Of a stretch of 64,000 nt of DNA, positions 3,286 through 60,982 are shown one piece after another. Both the position numbers and the translations under genes were made by a program. The stretch spans positions 44,573,876 through 44,637,875 of the forward strand of contig NW_023601433.1 in the NCBI RefSeq assembly GCF_014898055.3. Direction: 5' to 3'. Position 1 is the first letter of the stretch. Each line of letters opens with the position of its first letter. Source of the DNA: Talpa occidentalis. Its lineage: Eukaryota > Chordata > Mammalia > Eulipotyphla > Talpidae. The notes under the pieces are model-generated. The model was not told the DNA's origin and did not search any database. It saw only the letters and a list, made by a program, of their open reading frames with translations.

Positions 3286-3375
3286 CTGAGTGGTCTTGCA
3301 AGGTGAGAACCCATAGACAGTGACCTGTCCCCCACCTTGCCACTGCCTTTGCCACTGTTTTATGGCCGCTGCCCA
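3286..3375 (+). repeat. Inverted-repeat arm paired with 1770-1872
   Basis: Partner of the arm at 1770-1872. It carries the same core GTGAGAACCCATAGACAGTG and ends near GGCCGCTGCCCA, against GGCCACTGCCCA in the other arm. Confidence 0.75.
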
Positions 3376-9230: not shown

Positions 9231-9800
9231 GTGATGGTTAGTTTTAGGTGTCCACTTGACTAGGTTGTAATGCCCAGTCGCCCTGTCAAGCACACTAATT
9301 CAGTTGCTGTTGAGTAGGTATAGTCATGCCTCACTTAACCACTAGATTCATTCTGAGAAGCTTATCGTTAGGCTGTTTCATCACTGTGTGAACTTCACAG
9401 AGTGTACTTACACAACCCTAGACAGCCCCGCCTCCTACACACCTGGGCTACATAGAAGGGCCACCATCATAAGGGGGCAGGTTGTTGACTGAGACACTAT
9501 TGGGCAGCTTGTTGCATTTTGTAGATACGACTAACTTCAGTTGACTTCAAATAAAGGAGATAATCTGAATAGGCCTCATCTAATCAGTTGACTTTAAATA
9601 AAGGAGCTAAACTGGGTGGGCCTCATCTAATCAGTTGACTTTAAATAAAGGAGATTATTTGTGTGTGCCTTGTCCTGTCATTTGAAAGGCTTCAAAAACT
9701 TATATTTCCCTTGGTGGAAGAAATTCTTCTGAGGCTTTGGAGTACAGTCTCAGTACTTGAATTTCAAACTTGGCTACCCCCTCCCCCGTTGTGTTAACCA
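9231..9800 (+). mobile_element. MLT2-like (ERVL) LTR relic with nested insertion
   Basis: It starts TGATGGTTAGTTTTAGGTG and TCCACTTGACTAGG, close to MLT2-family LTR starts. The later GGGCCTCATCTAATCAGTTG piece also fits. The two parts are separated at about 9312-9535 by unrelated sequence reminiscent of an old DNA-transposon or repeat fragment (GTCATGCCTCACTTAACC...). Ends are approximate. Confidence 0.5.
9538..9669 (+). repeat. 47-bp tandem repeat, 2.8 copies
   Basis: Copies at 9538-9584, 9585-9631 and a partial one at 9632-9669. Each begins CAGTTGACTT and contains AAATAAAGGAG; the two full copies end GGCCTCATCTAAT. It lies within the LTR relic, so it is a local expansion of LTR sequence. 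Confidence 0.9.
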
Positions 9801-12426: not shown

Positions 12427-12697
12427 TTTTTTTTTAAGATTTATTTGTTTATTTATACAAGTACCAGGGTATGGGCCAGATGTGAGGGAGCGTGAAGGAT
12501 TCACCAGAGACAGAATGGGGAACAGAACAGGCAGACTGACGAAATACACTGCTGAGGGGAGCAGCGGGCGAGACATAAGTCTGCCACTCCATGTGGGATC
12601 CTTACCAGCTGGCCAGTCTGGATTGAACCCACGTTGCAGAGGCTGCAGACAGTCTCACAGTGCTGCGCCCAACTGCCTGCGCCACCAGGGGAGGCAC
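12427..12697 (-). mobile_element. tRNA-derived SINE, older subfamily
   Basis: Inverted copy of the same family: oligo-T and AAGATTTATT at the left end, GCCACCAGGGGAGGC at the right. Target duplications CCCAGAGGTCTT lie at 12415-12426 and 12698-12709 and are perfect. It lies 198 bp from the opposite-strand copy at 12896. Confidence 0.88.
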
Positions 12698-12895
12698 CCC
12701 AGAGGTCTTGTTTACCAGTTTCTTCCTTTCCACCATCACATTCTTAACTACTTTGCCAAAGTTGTGTCATGTATGTGAAGGTTTGACAAGTTTAAGTCAT
12801 TACTGTTACTTCTTTTAGAAAGTCTTTACAACTATTATATCCCCTAAAATGTTTTCTATATCCCAAGATTTTACATTAGAAAAAGGGAAAACTTG

Positions 12896-13164
12896 GGGCC
12901 TCCCTGGTGGCACAAGTTGTTAAGCACTGCACTAAGAAGCAATCCGCAGCCTCTGCAACACAAGTTCGATCCCTGGCCGGCCAGGGAGCAACCCACATGG
13001 CGAGGCAGACCTTTCCTGTCTTGCCCGCTGCTCCCCTCAGCAGTGTATTTCAGTCAGTCTGCCTGTTCTGTTCTCCACTCTGTCTCTGGTGAATCCTCTC
13101 ACCCCCCAATCTCTGGCCCGTACCCCAGCTCTTGTGTGCATAAATAAATAAATCTTTTTTTTTT
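12896..13164 (+). mobile_element. tRNA-derived SINE, older subfamily
   Basis: Head GGGCCTCCCTGGTGGCACAA, B box AGTTCGATCCC, tail AAATAAATAAATCTT followed by T and A runs. Target duplications AAAAGGGAAAACTTG (12881-12895) and AAAAGGGAATACTTG (13165-13179) differ by one base. Confidence 0.88.
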
Positions 13165-20487: not shown

Positions 20488-20544
<57 letters not shown>

Positions 20545-28600: not shown

Positions 28601-29690
28601 ATGTCAGATAATAAACCTCACAAAACTATTCAGTCAGCTCAGTATCCTATAGTTCAAATAAACATGAGAACAATCCGAAGGTGGCTTTGAGTATGTGTGA
28701 TAAATGGAGTTTGTTGTATATTTGCTGCTAAAATTACTTTTTTTTAAAAATCAAGTACTCTAGTCTATTGTGTATATCATTGGGGTTTCTTTCCATGCTT
28801 TTTGGGCTGCATTGAAAGGGACCATCTTCAGATTTGATGGCTTTTATAGTTTACTTGTTAGGTTTTAACAAAGCCTACTTGAAGGTAGCTGCTTTGTTTG
28901 TTTGGTTCTGTTTTCAATAGAATTGATTGATTTTAGTTTTGTTGAGCAAGGTGAGACAAATTCTTTGTGCTGGCAACAGTTTTTACTGTTGTTTCAATGA
29001 AAAATAGCATGTTTGAGAAGAGAGGAGAGGATTGCTTCTTTTTGAGGTAAACAATAGGAAGGATCCCTAATATTTTTTAAAGCTTCACTTCAGCAGGTTT
29101 TTATTTTAAAAAAAATGCTCAGCTTCCCTTCTTTGCCATTCAATGTCACTTAAAATTTTATTTAAAGAATAGAATAGATTGTTTTCTGTGACTTTTGAAT
29201 GAAAACAACAGAAGAACAGTTTAAATCAGTTGGCACCAAATAGAAATTCTTTTTTTCTTTTGCTGTGTTTTCCTGTGACATAAATGCCTCTGCTTAAATT
29301 ATTAATTGGAACCTCTCATTTCCTACTGTGTCATCTGTAACTCAGGGGCCACTTTGCTGAATAAAATGTATTAACTAATAACCTCCTGAGGGAAGGAGGT
29401 GCAGGGCTATCTCTTTTTATCTCTTTCTGATCTAAAAGTTAATGGGAAAAAGTCAATACCCACAGCTGTTCTTCTGTCTTCTTGAAAAAATTCTATCATC
29501 AAAATATTCCATTTAATAAAATGGCTCTTTGTTCATTCTGCTTTTGACAGAGAGAGAAGGGAGAGGTGAAAACAGCTGTGGGCCAGGAATTGGTTCCTGT
29601 TTGTTGTTTTAATTTATTTATTGATACAACAAAAGTTCAGAACACCAGAATATTCTCATTATAGTACAATGAAGTCTCTAAAAATATTTT

Positions 29691-29951
29691 TTATTAGATT
29701 TATTTATTTATCTATATAAGCACTGGGTACAGTCAGAAGCGCGGGAGGGTGAGAGAATTCACCAGAGCCAGAGCGGGGAACAGAACAGGCAGACTGACGA
29801 ATTACACTGCTGAGGGGAGCAGCGGGTGGCAGGAGAGGTCTGTGCGCCATGTGGGACCCTTGCCGGAGGCCGGGGATCGAACCGGCGCTGCAGAGGCTGC
29901 AGGCAGCTTCGCAGCCCAGCGCTCAACCTCTGCGCCACCAGGAACGCCCCC
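29691..29951 (-). mobile_element. tRNA-derived SINE, younger subfamily
   Basis: Inverted copy carrying the younger-type body (AAGCGCGGGAGGGTGAGAG complement, CCAGAGCGGGGAACAG) and preserved CpGs. The head complement is GCGCCACCAGGAACGCCC. AT-rich flanks TAAAAATATTTT and TAAAATAATTTT look like a decayed target duplication. Confidence 0.8.
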
Positions 29952-30170
29952 CTAAAATAATTTTAAAGTGAAGTTGTAGTTGGGAAAAGAGTAATACCAG
30001 ACTGGAGATTGTTTGGGCATTTCTCTCATCTTCAAAAAACTTCTCTTTGCCTCCTGGAAAATCAGCTTAACTATTGCAAGTCAGTTACTACTTTGAATTT
30101 TTATTATTCTTTGTACATGAATCAATTAGCAGTTATTGTGTTATATTTTGAGACCATGACTGCTCCTTGT

Positions 30171-30399
30171 TACTGAATTATGGTCCATGGTGAATAAAAA
30201 GTCAAATCAAAGGTCTGTTAAGAGGAGCTGTAAGTGCTATGAGAGGAAGTTCCCGGCTTATTCAATTCACCACTTACACTTTCCATTCCTAGAGTTTGAG
30301 CCACTCATGATTAACTTACATCCATGGTTGCAAACCACAGTACCCCAAAGTACTGAGTTAACATATTATCAGAACCCATTCATGGAACCCACTGATTCT
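30171..30399 (+). repeat. Left arm of a 229-bp perfect inverted repeat
   Basis: From TACTGAATTATGGTCCATGG to GAACCCACTGATTCT. Every base matches the reverse complement of 31509-31737, and identity stops abruptly at both ends. The arm carries a 72-codon open frame (30187-30405) that is repeated identically on the minus strand of the other arm. The product is unrecognised and probably not real. Confidence 0.98.
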
Positions 30400-30519
30400 A
30401 GTTAGTTATATATCTTATTTATATGTTAATTACTCTAAGTCAGTTAGTTTATCAATAAATATTCATTCATGGATAAATCAATTTTTTCAAGTCATATTTT
30501 TCGAACTTTCAATACAGGT

Positions 30520-30690
30520 AACATGGTAATAAGTACTTTGTATCTAGACATCATTGAATCTTTAGACTAGTCCTTTGAAATATATGTATTTCCCCCCATT
30601 TTATAGATGGGAAGCCAAGGCTCAGAGGGAAGTAATTTTGCTGTATTCTCAGGTCACTTGTGCTAGAGTCTGGATGCGTGCTGAGTGCCC
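30520..30690 (+). mobile_element. MIR relic in the inverted-repeat spacer
   Basis: CCCCATTTTATAGATGGGAA, CAAGGCTCAGAGGGAAG and AGGTCACTTGTGCTAGAGTC match the MIR core order. Confidence 0.5.
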
Positions 30691-31508
30691 AGGGACAAAC
30701 CATGTCTGTTCCATCATGATGGAGTTTAGAGGAAAATAGTGACCAGTAAATAGGCTGATAAAATAGTGGTGTGTTTATAATAAAAAAGGTGCAGATGCCA
30801 TGGGGCCCCAAATTAAGATAACAGAGAACCAATGTTAAGATTTGACAAGGCCTATGGAGAACCCAATAGATGAACTGAGGTGTGTCTAATGACACACCTG
30901 TTAGCAAGCGAGGGACAACCAAGGTCTGTGGGCACAGGTAACAGGCTGTGCAGAGCCCCTGGCATGAAAGGAATTGGAAGTGACCTGTGCTTCCTTGAAG
31001 TTATCAGACTTTATTCTTTATTCTGAAGTTATCAGACTTCATTCAGCACTGTTGAAAGGTTCTTGATAATCCAGAAAAAGGAAGGTAATCGTTCTGCAGT
31101 GGTGGCAGTTGATAGCAGGATCAGCAAGGATATGTGAAGCATTCCAAAAGCAAAACTGAAGGGTCTTGGCTTGGATACAGACTTTGGTGGGTTAAGGGGG
31201 TAGGATGAGTACTAGGTGTTGGGCTTAGGCGACAGGTAGATGGTGGTACCCCTCCTGAGCTGGCCAGAGAAGAAACAGGTGTGCCAAGGGTGTGGGTATG
31301 AGGACATGAGCTCTCATCATTCAACGTGGCAGTATTGAATCTGAGACATCTTTGGGCTTGTTGGATAGAGATTTCAGCATCAAGAGTGAAACAACTAGAA
31401 TTGCACAAGGAAATGTGCAGAATTGAAAGAGAAAGAAGCTTCAAATAACCCCAAGTAGCATCATCATTTAAAGAAGACCAGAGAGCAGCCAGCAAAGAAT
31501 CCAGATGA

Positions 31509-31737
31509 AGAATCAGTGGGTTCCATGAATGGGTTCTGATAATATGTTAACTCAGTACTTTGGGGTACTGTGGTTTGCAACCATGGATGTAAGTTAATCA
31601 TGAGTGGCTCAAACTCTAGGAATGGAAAGTGTAAGTGGTGAATTGAATAAGCCGGGAACTTCCTCTCATAGCACTTACAGCTCCTCTTAACAGACCTTTG
31701 ATTTGACTTTTTATTCACCATGGACCATAATTCAGTA
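31509..31737 (-). repeat. Right arm of a 229-bp perfect inverted repeat
   Basis: Exact reverse complement of 30171-30399. The spacer between the arms is 30400-31508 (1,109 bp). A minus-strand open frame runs through the arm (31464-31721, 85 codons), sharing its first 72 residues with the left-arm frame. Confidence 0.98.
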
Positions 31738-36015: not shown

Positions 36016-36344
36016 ATGGAAGCACTCATGCTCACATGCACACAGGTCTCTCTCCCTTTCATTCAAAGCCATACTTATTTGCAGCAGTCACTCCAGTTTA
36101 TGTTTGAAATTTTCATCCCCTCTGCTATTTTCTCTTCTACTTTTTCCCCCATTTAGTACCTATACTATACTTCTGTAATACGTACTTTTTGAAGACTTTG
36201 ATTTTAATTCTTTCCCATGTGCTATATATAACATTGTTAAAATTGCATGATGTCAAAATTTTAAATTATCTTACTTAAAAACAAATGCTGTAATTGTTTG
36301 GAAGTGTTTCATTTTTATCACAATTTTAAAAGTATATGAGTATT

Positions 36345-36618
36345 GGGCCTCCCCGGTGGCGCAGCGGTTGAGCGCTAGGTTGCGAAGCTGCCTGCAGCCT
36401 CTGCGGCGCTGGTTCGATTCCCGGCTGCTCCCCGGCCACCAGAGGAGGGTCCCACATGGCGCGCAGACCTCTCCTGCTACGCCCGCTGCTCCCCTCAGCA
36501 GTGTACTTCGGTCCTTCTGCCTGCTCTGCTCCCCGCTCTGGCTCTGGTGAATTCTCTCACCCTCCCGCGCTTCTGACTGTACCCAGTGCTTGTATAAATA
36601 AATAAATCTTAAAAAAAA
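36345..36618 (+). mobile_element. tRNA-derived SINE, younger subfamily, perfect 17-bp TSD
   Basis: Head GGGCCTCCCCGGTGGCGCAG, B box GGTTCGATTCC, CpG-rich body (CTCTGCTCCCCGCTCTGGCT), tail TATAAATAAATAAATCTT plus A12. The target duplication AAAAGTATATGAGTATT is identical at 36328-36344 and 36619-36635, which marks a recent insertion. Confidence 0.95.
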
Positions 36619-38761
36619 AAAAGTATATGAGTATTTAGAAATGTTTCAAAGGAAGGGACTATCTGTAATCCTTTTATTGTTACTAATATTGTCTCTAAAG
36701 GAAGTATTGTCTCTAATTCTGTCATTAGAGAGATTTGCTTTAGATAGCTCTGGCAAGCTGAAAAATGTGGCTAGCTGTATAAGTTTCACAGAAAAGAATC
36801 TGCAACTTGAAGTTACAACTTGAAGTTAAATTTGTTAGTCAGCTGCTACATCAAGAACTTTTAAATTTGAACACTTAGAATTGTTAGTGGCATGCTAACA
36901 GAAATTTAGTAAAGGTTTGTAATTATGGTATTGGAGCAGGGATCTATTCCAGAAGGCTTAGGTTTTGATACTGAATTTAAGTGTCAGAACTGTAATTTTT
37001 CCTTCCTTCCTTCCTCTCCCCGGCAGTCTATGCAGCTCTCAGTACAGAGTAATTCTGGTCATTGAATCACAATCTCTGGTCTTTAATTAAGTGTAAACAT
37101 GGTTCTTTGAACATTTAAAATTGCTCTGTACTGTCCAACAATCAAACTCAAAATGAATAAAGCAAAAAATGAATATGGCTCAAGGAGCTACAAAATTTCT
37201 GGAGTAGAACAGGTCCCAGGCCTAGTCGAAATCAAGAGCAGCTCTAGCCTTTCAAGTCCTTCTGTCTTGCACTTCACTCTGCTTGTTTGCTACTGTTCCT
37301 GTTCTTAATCACACGAGCAAGGCGAGCCCCCTCCCCTATAGCTCCATATTTATGTTCTGCCACTTGAACAGCAGTAAAGGATTGGCACATCCACGATGGT
37401 GAATCCCTTCCTGGGAGGGCTGTCATTGGCCTGCCTAGCTTCCCAGGCTCATCCTGGATCCAGTTCCTCACTGTGATCAGGACTTTCATTGGTCAAACTT
37501 GGGTAATGCTAGCCCACATAAATTAAATGGTTTTGAGTTGTGCTTCCCCAAAGGAATTCAGAAGAGACCAGAAGAAAGGAGAGACTAAGTCCTAGACAGG
37601 AATAATCAGTAGTTGCTTCCTTGAACTAATCTTGCTGTACACAGGACATTTAAAAGTTATAGCTGAAGGGATGTTCTCAGAAGATTTCTTTGAGAAAGGG
37701 TTTTACGACTTGCATCAGTTTTGGGAATTTGTTTCACTAGGAAATCAGTTTCAAATGCATTTTCAAATTTGGTGCCATAGAATTGCTTGTGTTATGTAGA
37801 TTTTATGCTTGTTTTTATTTCATCTCTTCTATGTGTGTGTTCATGGCTCCTTTTTCATTTCCAAATTTCTATAATATTTTTCCCTTTTTTATGCTTGGAA
37901 AGGAGTATCTATTTTATGCTTTTAAAAAAATGCTTTTGGATTTGTCCTCTAATTTCTGCCATATTCCATTTCAGTCATTATCTTTATTACTTTTTTTGTT
38001 GGTTTCTTTTGGTATATTTTTTTATTTTATGACTTTTTAAGGTGATGAATACTTAGTTCCTGATTATATTTCTGGAAACCGTACAATTCAGAAGTTTGGG
38101 ACTAAGACCTGGTTGGACTTGCTTCTTCTGTAATAGGACACTTGCATATTGATAGTATATAACTGAAAATAATGTAATTAATGCCTATTGAGAATTTTTC
38201 TAGTCCTGTATCAGCCATTAGAAATACTTCTTGAGATTTTGTTGAGTGATCTGTAAGCAGCAGAATTATCAATAGAATTTATGGATTATGTAGAATCCTA
38301 GTACAGTAAATCAAATGCATTTCAGCAGAGAGTATTAGGCAAGAAGTTCTTTTCTCTCCTGTCTCAGTTGTCATTTTACCATTTTCCAGGAAAGGATTTG
38401 ATAAGTCTAAATTGTGTAGGAAATGATTATAATTCAGATTATCTGTGATCCTTTAAACACAATAATTCTAAGTGAGATAGATCAGAAGCAGTCATCTCTT
38501 CCTCTGTGAGAACACTGGTGTGTTCTGTGCTGAGAGTATCTGATTGCTCATTCCCTCTTTGTCTGCCACATCCTAAAATACTGTATTTCCTCAATTATAA
38601 AGCTGCCCTGGGAATAGACAGCATGTTGTCTGCCCTGACTGACTTTTTCCAATGAGAGCTGGGTTTGGACGGGTGGGAGAGCAAACTGCCATCATAAGAA
38701 AATATCTGCTATTCTGAGAGATCCACATGTTCACCTCAAAGCCATTAAGAATCCACTGACT

Positions 38762-39078
38762 GGGCCTCCCCGGTGGCGCAGCGGTTGAGCGCTGGGTTGC
38801 GAAGCTGCCCGCGGCCTCTGCGGCGCCGGTTCGATTCCCGGCTGCTCCCCGGCCACCGGAGGAGGGTCCCACATGGCGCGCAGACCTCTCCTGCCGCCCA
38901 CTGCTCCCCTCAGCAGTGTACTTCGGTCCTTCTGCCTGCTCTGCTCCCCGCTCTGGCTCTGGTGAATTCTCTCACCCTCCCGTGCTTCTGACTGTACCCA
39001 GTGCATGTATAAACAAAACAAACAAACAAATAAATAAATAAATAAATAAAACATGCCTCTATTTAAAAAAAAAAAAAA
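38762..39078 (+). mobile_element. tRNA-derived SINE, youngest subfamily, perfect TSD
   Basis: Nearly identical to the copy at 36345 in head and body, with intact CpGs. Its tail is longer, with a CAAACAAACAAATAAATAAA stretch and a second A-run. The target duplication AAGAATCCACTGAC is identical at 38747-38760 and 39079-39092. Confidence 0.95.
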
Positions 39079-40136
39079 AAGAATCCACTGACAAATGTCC
39101 TTATACTGGTCATTTCACTAGCTGCAGTTTGAAATTTTTTAACAGAATTGCAGGTTTTTTTGTGCTTTGGTGAAAGCTGAGGGAAATAGGCTGTATTATA
39201 CCTTTATTATCATCAGCAACATCATTTTGAGATGAAGCAGAGTCATCCCTTCATTCTTATGCATATAACTTAGATTCCCAGATTACCATGCATTGGGAAA
39301 ATATGATGCCTGGAAAATATTTTTATGTCTTTGAAGAAAGAATTAAAGAGATAAAAAATTATTTGTAATTGAAGAGTTGGTTAGGTCATTTCTACCAACC
39401 ACCAAAGGAAATTATTATGTTTATAATATCTCTGTGCTTTAATTTTTCACTGCACATTTATCAGGTTGTTAGTGCCGTAATAAACTAGAAAGTTGTACCT
39501 GTTCAGACAGCAAATTCTTGAGGCCTCCTCCCACCTTGAGGGGGATCTCTGAGTTTCTGTTTGATTATAAGAGAGCATTCTGAAAACTCATTTGTGATTG
39601 TCTGCTATTGAACTTCTTGATGCTGAGTAATTTGAATTTTACTATTTTGAAAGAAGGAATCATAGCAAACAATTACCTGACTCTTATGTTATTCTTGCAA
39701 CTAACTGAAATGTTATTTGATTACCTGATTTAGCCCAGACTGTATTTATAAATAATGTTGATGACAAGATGGAAGCCATAGTTCTTGATTTAGAGGAGCC
39801 TGACCTTAGCCAGAAGAGACTCATCAGTGAACCCGCAATTAAGATTATAAGGGGAAGAACTGTGACAGATGTGGGTGTGGAGGTGATGGCTAGGGTGACA
39901 CAGAAAGGTTTCTTTGCTCAGATGTGAGGTAAGGGTGGGAGATGTACTGGGAGTTTCCTGGGGTGGGTATTGCTTGATTCTGTGGTATAAATTCTTGTCA
40001 GTCGAGTAGAATAGGAAGGCCAGGTATTCAGAGAAGAAGAGCAATATGAACAAGGAGGAGTCATGAAACTTTATGACAATTTGGGGGAACTGGAGATGAG
40101 CAGAGGTAGGAGAGGATAGATGAGATATAGGCAATA

Positions 40137-40473: not shown

Positions 40474-40732
40474 GTGAAGTAAGTGCTGATGACCGGATGT
40501 CTTAAGGAATGCTCTTGAAAAGGTCGGAGTTTACAAAATTATAACAACTGAGAAGCAAATTGGTTTTGGAGAAATCATACTCCGACAATGTTGTTTGCTT
40601 TTGGTTGAAGAGAGAAAATCGAACTATAAAAGAAGCCTTTATCTTTGCATTTAAGATAGCATTATAAATAACGATGTAATTACATTTATATCAGTCTTCT
40701 TGTGAGACAAGGAGTTTCTTGCCTGGATAGAC
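40474..40732 (+). promoter_or_regulatory. SIPA1L2: 5'-UTR portion of the first coding exon, with five uORFs
   Basis: Sequence between the acceptor at 40472-40473 and the start codon. It contains five upstream ATGs, all closed before the main start: 40489-40518 (9 codons plus stop), 40497-40505 (Met-Ser-stop), 40509-40544 (11 codons), 40588-40608 (6 codons) and 40674-40679 (a minimal ATG-TAA start-stop). The first three overlap in different frames. Such uORFs usually lower or condition translation of the main frame; that effect is inferred here, not shown. Confidence 0.8.
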
Positions 40733-42209
40733 ATGAGTGACCCCAGGCAATCACAGGAAGAGAAGCACAAACTTGGCAGAGCCTCGACAAAGTTCAAGGA
40801 CTCTCCCAGAATCATGCAATCTGATGATTACTTTGCTCGAAAATTTAAAGCCATGAATGGCAACATGGGACCCCCCACTTCTTTAAATGCCTCAAATTCT
40901 AGTGAGAGTGGGGGCCCAGCTAATGGTACCCCAGCAGTACCCAAGATGGGTGTGAGAGCTAGAGTGTCAGAGTGGCCTCCCAAAAAGGACTGCTCCAAGG
41001 AGCTAAGCTGCAAGGCACTATGGGAAAGCCGGTCTCAGACCAGCTATGAAAGTGTCGCCTCCATCATGCACAATGGGCAGAATGACCAGAACGATGGGCA
41101 GCAGGAGGAGCCACTGGACCTGGACTTTGTGGAGGCTAAGTACACAATTGGAGACATCTTTGTTCACTCTCCTCAAAGAGGACTTCACCCCATAAGACAG
41201 AGAAGTAATAGTGATGTCACCATCAGTGACATCGATGCTGAAGATGTCTTAGACCAAAATGCAGTGAACCCCAATACTGGGGCTGCTCTGCACAGGGAGT
41301 ATGGAAGCACATCTTCCATAGACCGGCAAGGCTTATCTGGTGAAAACTTTTTTGCTATGCTCAGAGGGTACCGCGTTGAGAATTATGACCACAAAGCAAT
41401 GGCCCCGTTTGGGTTCCCTGAGTTTTTTCCCTGTGATCCTACCATCTCCCCCAGCCTTCACGCGGCAGCACAGATTTCTAGAGGAGAATTCGTCCGCATC
41501 TCAGGATTAGACTACATGGACAGTGCCCTCCTGATGGGGAGAGACAGGGACAAGCCTTTCAAGCGGAGGTTAAAGTCAGAGTCGGTGGAAACCTCCCTCT
41601 TCCGAAAGCTGCGAACGGTTAAAAGTGAACATGAAACTTTCAAGTTCACATCTGATCTGGAAGATGGTCGTCTTGAGAGGGGCATTCGCCCTTGGAATTG
41701 CCAGCGATGTTTTGCACATTATGATGTCCAGAGTATTTTGTTTAACATCAATGAAGCTATGGCCACACGGGCTAATGTGGGGAAAAGGAAGAACATAACC
41801 ACAGGGGCTTCAGCGGCCTCCCAGACTCAGATGCCAGCGGGCCAGGCGGGCACCTGTGAGTCCCCATTGGGGAGCAAGGAGGATCTCAACTCTAAAGAGA
41901 ACCTGGATGCTGATGAGGGTGATGGGAAAAGTAATGACCTTGTCCTAAGTTGTCCCTACTTTCGAAATGAGACCGGGGGGGAAGGAGACAGAAGGATTGC
42001 TCTGTCTAGGGCCAACTCCTCATCTTTCAGTTCGGGGGAAAGTTGCTCCTTTGAATCTTCTCTCAGCTCTCACTGCACAAATGCGGGCGTCTCTGTCTTG
42101 GAAGTGCCCAGAGAAAACCAGCCTATTCACAGGGAGAAAGTGAAGCGCTATATCATAGAGCACATCGACCTTGGGGCCTACTATTACCGCAAATTCTTCT
42201 ATGGAAAAG
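40733..42209 (+). CDS. SIPA1L2: SIPA1L2 first coding exon (residues 1-492 plus first base of codon 493)
   Basis: Encodes the N-terminal third of SIPA1L2, a SPAR-family Rap GTPase-activating protein of the neuronal synapse and cytoskeleton. I recognise it by near-continuous agreement with the mammalian SIPA1L2 N-terminus as I know it (begins MSDPRQSQEEKHKLGRAS); the paralogue SIPA1L1 starts quite differently. Visible landmarks: the SPAR-family motif VPKMGVRARVSEWPPKK at residues 69-85; a basophilic phosphosite-like RQRSNSDVTISD at 155-166; REYGSTSSIDRQGLSGENFF at 188-207; a CxxC pair (C323, C326) inside a conserved block at 317-342; a conserved SCPYFRNE block at 406-413; and the start of the region preceding the Rap-GAP fold (KRYIIEHIDLGAYYYRKFF, 471-489). 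Much of 1-310 is Ser/Asn/Gln-rich and probably disordered. The ATG has G at -3, and an in-frame TGA lies at 40703-40705. The exon ends AAAG|GTAAGG after one base of codon 493. Unspliced read-through would add five residues and a stop at 42226. Confidence 0.97.
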
Positions 42210-42399
42210 GTAAGGAGGAGCGTTGAGCATGGATGTGTGCATGGGCATCATTTCTTCAGGGCAAATTGCTTTGTGTCACCGTATCCAGGACCATAGTCTA
42301 CTGGACTTAAGCTTGTTCTCTGTCATGGACCCTTGTTTCTGCCAGACTAATCCCTTCTTTAGAAATCCCCCAATTTCCGGCCCTTGCTGATTTGTAATC

Positions 42400-57361: not shown

Positions 57362-58231
57362 AAACAGTGAGCTTCCATCGTGGGCAGCATTCAGGTTAGA
57401 ACTCTGAGGGGGGCTTTTCCTGAACTGTGCTCCAGCTGCTGAAACAGTGCCTGGGACATGGTGTTAAGTGTAAGAACGAGACTGGTAACCATCTCTTAAA
57501 AGAGTGTTTTCTGGGATTCGTGTGCAGGATGAACAAGACTATTTCAAAGGTCCATTCCTACAGTGGGATTGTGTACATTTGGGTCACTCTAGGACCAGTA
57601 GTTTTATGCAAAAGAAACGAACTGAGAGCATAATCAAACTCAGTAATAGTATTAATCTGGACAGTTTGACCTCAGCAACTGACTGACCTTTTACATATGG
57701 TTTGTCTATTGCTCAGCATTGTTTTAGGTCGTTAGGTGATTTTGGTGACATGGTGATGAAAGGGTGATCTGTGCCACCGGTGGGTTGCCAAGATTAATCT
57801 GACAAGTCTAAGTGGCTGGTCAGCTCCCCTCTTGAGCCTGCAGTTCGTGAGGGAAGGTGACCTTCCCACCTGGAAGAAACTGCTCAGGGATGGTTCTACA
57901 AGCAATTTGGTTCCTCTCCTGCCAGTTATTCAGGGTGATGACACCCTCTTTCCAATGGCCTATTCACATAATGTCCAAATTGCAACTTTTGGGACAGCAG
58001 AGTGTCCTGCTGCTCATGAAATAGTGAAAATCACAGTGAGAGGAAGGAGTAACCGAAGTTAAATGCTAATTTGGAACATCTAATTGGGAAACAAAAGTTT
58101 GACTAAACACATTTGGGGGAACCATGTATCCAGAGCCATGTGATATTTCTTGAGAGATTAGATACACAAGCTAAAAGATACCCATCCTCTTGCTTTGTTC
58201 TCTTTTTTGATGTCACGGCTTTATTCCTTAG

Positions 58232-58365
58232 AGCACCAGAACTACTTTGGAATAGATGAAAACCTGGGTCCAGTGGCAGTTAGCATCCGGAGAGAGAAGG
58301 TGGAAGACGCCAAGGAGAAAGAAGGGTCCCAGTTCAACTACCGGGTGGCTTTCAGGACAAGTGAG
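58232..58365 (+). CDS. SIPA1L2: SIPA1L2 second coding exon (residues 493-537)
   Basis: This internal exon of 134 bp continues the SIPA1L2 frame. The acceptor is a pyrimidine-rich tract ending CCTTAG at 58231, and the first two bases (AG) complete the Glu codon started by the G at 42209. The peptide begins [20 protein letters not shown] and ends at FRTSE. The block [13 protein letters not shown] is highly conserved across SIPA1 family members and belongs to the segment just N-terminal to the catalytic Rap-GAP domain. The donor is GAG|GTAAGG, so the exon leaves phase 0. Upstream and downstream introns are 16,022 and 1,929 bp. The frame extends past the donor to a stop at 58401, but that extension is intronic. 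Confidence 0.96.
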
Positions 58366-60294
58366 GTAAGGAGCTGCCTATGTCCTTCCATGTGGGATTG
58401 ACGCCTTAGACTTTACTGCACTGGGTTGTTTTTGTGTAAAGTATTGCATTTATTTTTAATACTAATGATTGCAACACTTATGATCATTTACAGTATTTTA
58501 TTGCAAATAAAAGCTTGAAAACCTGTCATGGATGTTCAGTGGCAAGGCTTTCCCTGCTGCCTTACGTGATAGAAGGAATGAAGTGATAAGCACGCAAGGT
58601 TGTGGGGGCTGAGACAGAGAAGCCTGAAGTATACAATTCATGTCAGAATTTAGGAAGGACTTTACAAATCTAACACACAAAATCGGACAGCTCGTGGTGG
58701 AGTGACGACTGGCTTTGTGTTTTTGCTAGGAGAGTAGGTTTGTCTGTCCAGACTTTATTGCAGGGGGTACCTAGATGTAATCCTTGCTTATCTTGCTTTG
58801 AGTGAAAAGTGAGATAGTGAGATCATTGCATAAATGGCACAATATGTGTCACCAAATACATGGAGATGTTGATTTACATAAAGAGTTAGATTTGGTCTTG
58901 CACTTTAGGTTTCATTCTCTTGACTCATTTTAATTAAAGGGGGGTATAGTTGGTGATTGCAGTTGACCCTTGAACAACATGGGGATTCATGTGGCCAACA
59001 CCTTGTGCAGTTGAAAATCTGAGCATAATATACTCAGCCTCTGTGTCTCAGGTTCTGCTTCTGTGGATTTAATGAAGTGATATCAATGGCTGGTTGAATT
59101 TGTGAATGCTGAACCTACTAATAGAAAAAAAATCCATTTATAAATGGATACACACACTTCAAATGGGTGTTGTTCAAGGGTCACCTGTGGTTCAGAATGG
59201 TATTTTGGTTCATTACCTCCAGGTCAGAGAAAGAGCGCATTGCTGACCACCTTCCATGTGTACGAGCCTGTGCCCGCTGTGCCTGCTGCCTGGTGCTTAG
59301 GTGCTCTGGCCATCTGGGCACATGCTGCAGAAGCTTGAGAGAAAGCTTCTGTCATGAAGGGGCATATTTTAAGTTATACACCTGAATAATCTGATTCATA
59401 GCCACATGTGGTTATTTAAATTTAAAATAATTAAATAAAGTTTAAAATGTAATTCCTCAATTGGACTAGTCACAGGTCCAGGGATAAATAGCCACCTGGC
59501 TTGTGCGTTAGTGTGAAGAGAGATGCTCATCCTGCAGAAAGTTCTGCGAGGCTGTGGTGTCCCAGAGCAGTGTGCAAACTCTAGGCCCCAAGTGTTACCC
59601 CCATCATCACCATAATCCTCTGTTATTACTCTTAAAATTCTCAAGAGTTAGAGGGGACAGAATTAGAACAGGTCTCTTGATTTGCAGTGCTGGGCTTTCC
59701 TCTTTCATCGTATTAGATTTGAGACATGTGTCAGAAGAGTAATCCATGCATTTATCAGATGTTTGAGAATGTATCAGTATAACAAACCATGAGACCAGAT
59801 TCTGTGGTGGGCTTCTCAGTCCTGCATCAGCCTTCCCAGGGTCTCTCCATTCAGATTCAGGAATTGTCAGCAAGGAGAGAAAAAAAATAAGACATAGAGA
59901 ACTACAAAAAAGGAAAAGGGAAAACAGAATGACAGGAGGAATGTGATTAGGCAGACCCAGCCTCATGAGTCCACTTTCTCCTGTGCATCCTTGTCCCATT
60001 GGCTCTGGGAGTTGTAGGCCTGTCTCTTCCCCAAAGCAGGGCCATGCTTGTTCCTTCCCCTCCTCTACACACACATCTAATTAGTCTATCCCCGCCTGGC
60101 TTGCTCCTGATCCCCCTGTGTTGTCTAAACACTAGCTGTGTTGATCTCATATCATCAAATTGAGAACCTTAGTCTCTTTTTCCCCATTCAGAAAAGAGAC
60201 TTACCTTTCTTTATTTATGGCCATTAAAAAAATTATGATTCAGAGAGGTAATCAGGAGTAAATAGTAACTGAAGTCTTACTGTTGTCCTTGCAG
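58366..60294 (+). other. SIPA1L2: SIPA1L2 intron between coding exons 2 and 3
   Basis: This 1,929-bp phase-0 intron runs from GTAAGG to TTGCAG. It contains a short Tigger-like terminal-inverted-repeat element at 58960-59187. A 155-codon open frame on the minus strand (59607-60074) shows no recognisable domain and is probably chance. Confidence 0.9.
58960..59187. mobile_element. Short Tigger-like element with terminal inverted repeats
   Basis: The left end CAGTTGACCCTTGAACAAC (58960-58978) and the right end GTTGTTCAAGGGTCACCTG (59169-59187) are inverted repeats matching at 18 of 19 positions. The interior is 190 bp with no coding capacity, which fits a non-autonomous mariner/Tigger-class relic. 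No clear TA duplication is left. Confidence 0.75.
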
Positions 60295-60483
60295 CTTACA
60301 ACACTGAGAGGAGCAATTTTGGAAGATGCTATCCCTTCTACCGCCAGACATGGTACTGCCCGAGGACTACCTCTCAAAGAAGTGCTGGAATATGTCATTC
60401 CAGAGCTGAGCATTCAGTGCCTGAGACAGGCTTCGAACTCACCCAAGGTTTCGGAGCAACTGCTCAAGCTTGATGAACAAGGG
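60295..60483 (+). CDS. SIPA1L2: SIPA1L2 third coding exon (residues 538-600)
   Basis: This 189-bp phase 0/0 exon (63 codons) starts directly after TTGTCCTTGCAG. It encodes [20 protein letters not shown] and continues through [19 protein letters not shown] to KLDEQG. The sequence is the conserved run that leads into the Rap-GAP catalytic domain; by the human numbering I recall, that domain begins near residue 595, so only its first residues are in this window. The catalytic Asn-bearing segment lies on exons beyond 64000. The donor is GGG|GTGTGTATA, a GT site with G at +5 but T instead of A at +4, weaker than the two preceding donors. The following intron runs past the end of the window. Confidence 0.95.
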
Positions 60484-60938
60484 GTGTGTATAATATATGA
60501 AACTGTGCTTTTATACATGTGTAGCTATGTTTCTAAATGTTTAGAGTTTTTCCATCCACCTCTCTTTTAGGATGATTTATTTATAATGCCTTGAAGCATT
60601 TTTCTCTTTTAATTTTCCCCCCAAATGCTTTCATACTAGTTTAGAAACATCATGTATTTATAGTGTGATATACTTCCCGCTCAGTTATATTGTTTTTACT
60701 AGGGCTATAGTATGACCCAGCTAGCAAGAGCACATCTGATTCATGATTATTAGAGGTTCATGGTATTTTTTCCCAGGGTTTAAAAAAAACTCATGTTGAG
60801 TGGCCCTCTCCCTCAGCTAGCACTTATTCCAGTTAACCATGTGCAAAACATCATGCTAATTGATGGCAGTGAGCAGCATGCATCAGGAAGATTGGAAGCT
60901 AAAACCTAGTTCCCAACCCATGGGCTAGAAAGACCAAG

Positions 60939-60982
60939 AGTACAAAGACTTCTGCAAGGCAGTACAAAGACTTCTGCAAGGC
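60939..60982. repeat. 22-bp perfect tandem duplication
   Basis: Two identical adjacent 22-mers starting AGTACAAAGACTTCTGC and ending AAGGC, at 60939-60960 and 60961-60982. Confidence 0.97.

Follow-up and report, generated by a model that had tools for sequence, protein, structure and literature searches.

The window, by which we mean the whole stretch of 64,000 nucleotides of Talpa occidentalis DNA that was analyzed, carries coding exons of SIPA1L2. An open frame of 506 codons (40706-42226) matches signal-induced proliferation-associated 1-like protein 2. In total, 347 proteins matched this frame at E up to 0.001; the names were taken from the best 120 of the 347, the top eight being unnamed. 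The Pteropus alecto entry P0009, 83% identical, is matched in three exons (Table 1). For the SIPA1L2 exon neither a Pfam family nor a PDB chain was returned, and the Rfam and tRNA scans gave no family at gathering score and no tRNA, respectively. The CpG-island scan revealed a single 500-bp stretch (38601-39100) overlapping a SINE; it gave no other promoter-like island, and no SIPA1L2 promoter was located by it. The inverted pair that is the subject of this study is found some 9 kb upstream of the earliest SIPA1L2 coding exon matched. The initial annotation had considered a position within a SIPA1L2 intron. Named homologues and exon matches bear out the gene, whereas the placement is conditional: the pair sits in a 5' intron of SIPA1L2 only if a non-coding first exon is located further upstream, and would otherwise be in DNA preceding the gene.

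The window is also populated by other repeats. About twelve copies (one of them fragmentary) of one SINE-like repeat, which we read as tRNA type, occur between 2529 and 57369 in both orientations and are 70-93% alike; examples are found at 29679-29967, 36325-36640 and 38760-39043, with tails such as AATAAATAAATCTTAAAAA. A pure TGC (CTG) trinucleotide run of 17.7 copies with 100% matches occupies 20489-20541, and a tandem array with a 47-bp unit (9537-9677) consists of three copies, of which the second and third share 87% and 74% identity, respectively, with the first one. Downstream of the third SIPA1L2 coding exon match, an exact tandem duplication of 22 bp is present (60939-60982). Another inverted pair, 1795-1872 with 3286-3362 (78 bp, 90% alike, 1.4 kb apart), was initially taken for an older counterpart of the pair described below. 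The genome search gave at least 40 matches to it, which makes it a dispersed repeat present by chance in both orientations, and it is not used as support here.

Table 1. Coordinates of the inverted pair, its interior and the SIPA1L2 exon matches (positions in the window).
Feature	Position	Strand	Description
Left arm	30171-30399	+	229 bp, exact reverse complement of 31509-31737; one of two genome matches
Spacer between the arms	30400-31508		1,109 bp; single place returned in its own assembly
MIR SINE remnant, inside the spacer	30525-30682	-	nhmmer E 8.1e-6 with a MIR consensus
Right arm	31509-31737	-	229 bp, exact reverse complement of 30171-30399; one of two genome matches
First SIPA1L2 coding exon matched	40733-42208	+	Named homologues; residues 1-492 of P0009 (Pteropus alecto) matched by tblastn
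Further SIPA1L2 coding exon match	58219-58368	+	P0009, Pteropus alecto
Third SIPA1L2 coding exon match	60307-60516	+	P0009, Pteropus alecto

The arms are reverse complements of each other at 229 of 229 positions. The adjoining bases differ both outside and inside, so that the limits of 229 bp are exact. The description as a base-perfect inverted repeat with abrupt ends and a spacer of about 1.1 kb could thereby be confirmed (0/229 mismatches, 1,109 bases in between). No other exact inverted repeat in the 64-kb window is longer, the runner-up measuring 62 bases and connecting two SINEs. The pair is far beyond chance, since exact inverted repeats grew to no more than 15-18 bases when the window was shuffled ten times by mononucleotides. 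For a base rate, 200 kb of a single contig was surveyed as 20 stretches of 10 kb each (N excluded), in which 19 exact local inverted repeats of at least 20 bp were found, the longest with 42 bp. Because none of at least 50 bp occurred among the 200 kb sampled, pairs of such size are not everywhere in the genome, 200 kb being too little for a useful rate. In the sequence at hand the inverted pair is thus real, and it is ordinary in kind.

Perfect identity is also the expected product of an assembly artefact, in which a gap-filling or chimeric-read error would have inserted an inverted copy of a neighboring piece. Whole-genome amplification is described as a source of artificial palindromic sequences (PMC6218980), and eight runs of N with 70-192 bases, either gaps or withheld stretches, were encountered within the 200 kb of sampled genome (L013, L016, L020, L024, L032). 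The window itself, however, is without any N. A simple fold-back read should, by our reasoning, produce either a palindrome whose spacer is minimal or missing, or arms that extend to a break. Further, the flanks of the two sides are unrelated, and the search with the right flank plus 38 bases of the arm found this flank once, joined to its arm, besides a hit of the 38 arm bases on the left arm. An artefact is considered unlikely, though its probability is not negligible.

The window's own assembly was searched (2,075,315,378 bases, i.e. 2.08 Gb, in 2,034 contigs). The arm query returned two places, which are the two arms, and the spacer query returned one. A control query with a dispersed repeat from the window gave at least 40 matches, that is, all those scored of 151 candidates; the search therefore does find dispersed repeats. 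Since it scores the best candidates only and skips very common words, the figure of two carries much weight without being final. Within the window, a sensitive self-comparison (E up to 0.05) revealed no further copies of arm, spacer or flanks, with the weak exception of an 81-base junction piece that gave a 37-base match at E 0.026. A 28-base arm pattern had no match in either viral_contigs or genome_contigs, both collections not meant for mammals, and spurious reading frames crossing the inner and outer junctions of the right arm had no candidate in the protein collection. Due to the two places for the arms and one for the spacer, as against 40 for the control, a repeat family or a mobile element is very unlikely. 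Membership of the arms in a repeat family, which the initial annotation had named as a refutation, was rejected on this copy number, no arm-like sequence elsewhere having been returned from the 2.08-Gb assembly. Two properties of a small local inverted duplication are present: the segment is otherwise unique and no mobile element (two arm places vs. at least 40 for the control), and the inverted copy lies within about 2 kb (229-bp arms, 1,109-bp spacer).

The same counts bear on the idea that the arms are terminal inverted repeats of a DNA transposon or MITE. Tc1/mariner elements target TA, and the outermost dinucleotide of the arms is TA on both sides, an observation that carries little weight. 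No other genome copies exist among the places returned for arms and spacer. Because a MIR SINE remnant sits inside it, the spacer is old mammalian host DNA, and its interior is not the cargo of a young element. Around the whole unit no direct target duplication was detected by a scan for matches of at least 3 bases at offsets up to 6, a 2-base TA duplication being below its reach. The absence of an obvious target duplication reported earlier thus holds for the whole unit; at the level of single arms, short matches do occur, at chance level. Close to the ends of the left arm lies a 4-base GTTA match, and half of 300 random intervals have one at least as long; the right arm has 3-base matches that are equalled or exceeded by 89% of random intervals. 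On copy number, the MIR in the spacer and the missing target duplication, a DNA transposon was rejected; copy number comes close to refuting it, and we consider it barely credible.

The sequence beyond the arms was compared in six shoulder comparisons against 200 shuffles each. Five of them were unremarkable, with scores reached by 60 to 142 of the shuffles, while for the inner 50 bp 6/200 shuffles scored as high, which is not notable given six tests. No residual homology past the arm limits stood out in these comparisons. A rival reading is that the inverted repeat is older and that its arms stay identical through gene conversion or through template switching at quasipalindromes. For the palindromes of sex chromosomes, such conversion from arm to arm has been reported (PMC3723533, PMC8981503). 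Here, however, the arms are short and no diverged shoulders extend past 229 bp, so that such an origin is improbable. Since the ends are abrupt and diverged shoulders absent, a single copying event would fit the sequence better than a conversion tract in an older, longer repeat.

Taken together, a small local inverted duplication, recent and made by replication template switching, is the best explanation, to which we assign a probability of about two in three. Counting against it are the minority share of inverted copies among human duplications, the shorter range of the template switches studied in great apes, a distance that may exceed the range used in the human study (see below), and the lack of pairs of 50 bp or more in the 200 kb sampled. 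The choice between recent inverted duplication, gene conversion and artefact, as initially proposed, proved adequate as a menu, with recent duplication as the preferred option. We infer the mechanism and the direction of copying as follows. In replication or break repair, the nascent strand would have switched to a template on the opposite strand at a distance of about 1.1-1.3 kb and, after copying 229 bases there, returned to its own, corresponding to template switching of the FoSTeS/MMBIR type. This would leave an inverted copy of one arm within otherwise unchanged old host DNA, with the source of the copy 1.1-1.3 kb from the insertion point. An identical final layout is predicted by a staggered-break inversion, in which the 1.1-kb spacer was flipped after staggered nicks around one arm and this arm was retained at both ends. 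Staggered breaks are a known route to inversions with inverted duplications at their ends, and the sequence offers no counter-evidence, the same anatomy being predicted. We regard this route as distinctly unlikely.

For the proposed template-switch duplication we also infer an age. With 0/229 differences and assuming no gene conversion, the 95% upper bounds are 6.5, 3.0, 2.2 and 1.5 million years at substitution rates of 1, 2.2, 3 and 4.5e-9 per site per year, respectively. Our main estimate of about 3 million years uses the rate of 2.2e-9. At 7% divergence, a value near that between the two SINE copies most alike in the window (92.6% identical), the probability of finding no difference over the arm is 6e-8. 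The pair would be recent, provided that no gene conversion has acted on its arms.

The RNA of 30171-31737 is predicted to fold with all 229 arm-to-arm pairs at a minimum free energy of about -739 kcal/mol, in agreement with the perfect 229-bp duplex that had been anticipated. If transcribed, this duplex could act as a substrate of ADAR or Dicer, and it is possible that the arms promote inversion of the spacer. Because diverged inverted SINE pairs are already present in the region, such as 12436-12698 with 12895-13156 (78% alike, about 200 bases apart), foldback as such is not unusual here; the perfection of the 229-bp pair is. That a lineage-specific hairpin in the SIPA1L2 pre-mRNA is edited or diced in its 229-bp duplex, with arms kept identical for regulatory use, is highly improbable. 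Most likely, the inverted pair is without function. Its importance would grow only if transcription and processing of the hairpin, or flipping of the spacer between individuals, were demonstrated. Its value lies in being a single, well-resolved example of a familiar type of mutation from beyond the human genomes used to count the class.

The 1000 Genomes structural-variation paper is reported to contain many short inverted duplications close to their source. A long-read study of 1,019 human genomes found inverted duplications to be the commonest inversion class outside mobile-element events (277/733), with a median size of 284 bp (PMC12350158). According to the authors, only 8.8% have homology at their breakpoints and most have microhomology of 1-15 bp, from which they infer a replicative origin (PMC12350158). 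Inverted copies are a minority of human duplications there, since 15,295 of the 17,029 duplications called as insertions are tandem (PMC12350158). The Talpa pair is similar to this class in arm size (229 vs. a median of 284 bp), locality and orientation, whereas the class was counted in another species and the Talpa pair is known from one assembly. With 1.1-1.3 kb it falls inside the 2-kb range of the human study if this means 2 kb on each side, and just outside if it means 1 kb. The inverted duplications described in a human study of 2019 are much larger and as such have no bearing on the size of 229 bp (PMC6467913).

Near-identical inverted arms around a spacer are shared with sex-chromosome palindromes; in contrast to the Talpa pair, these are large, and their arms are reported to be kept alike by gene conversion (PMC3723533). 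The short-range template switches of great apes, according to the respective study, often yield perfect inverted repeats of local sequence, as observed here (PMC7954356). These were sought over tens to hundreds of nucleotides, compared with arms of 229 bp and a spacer of 1,109 bp in Talpa. The MMBIR model is drawn largely from bigger, complex and disease-associated changes, unlike the Talpa pair, but it permits a switch into inverted orientation and then a second switch back, both of which it shares with the scenario proposed for this pair (PMC2621351).
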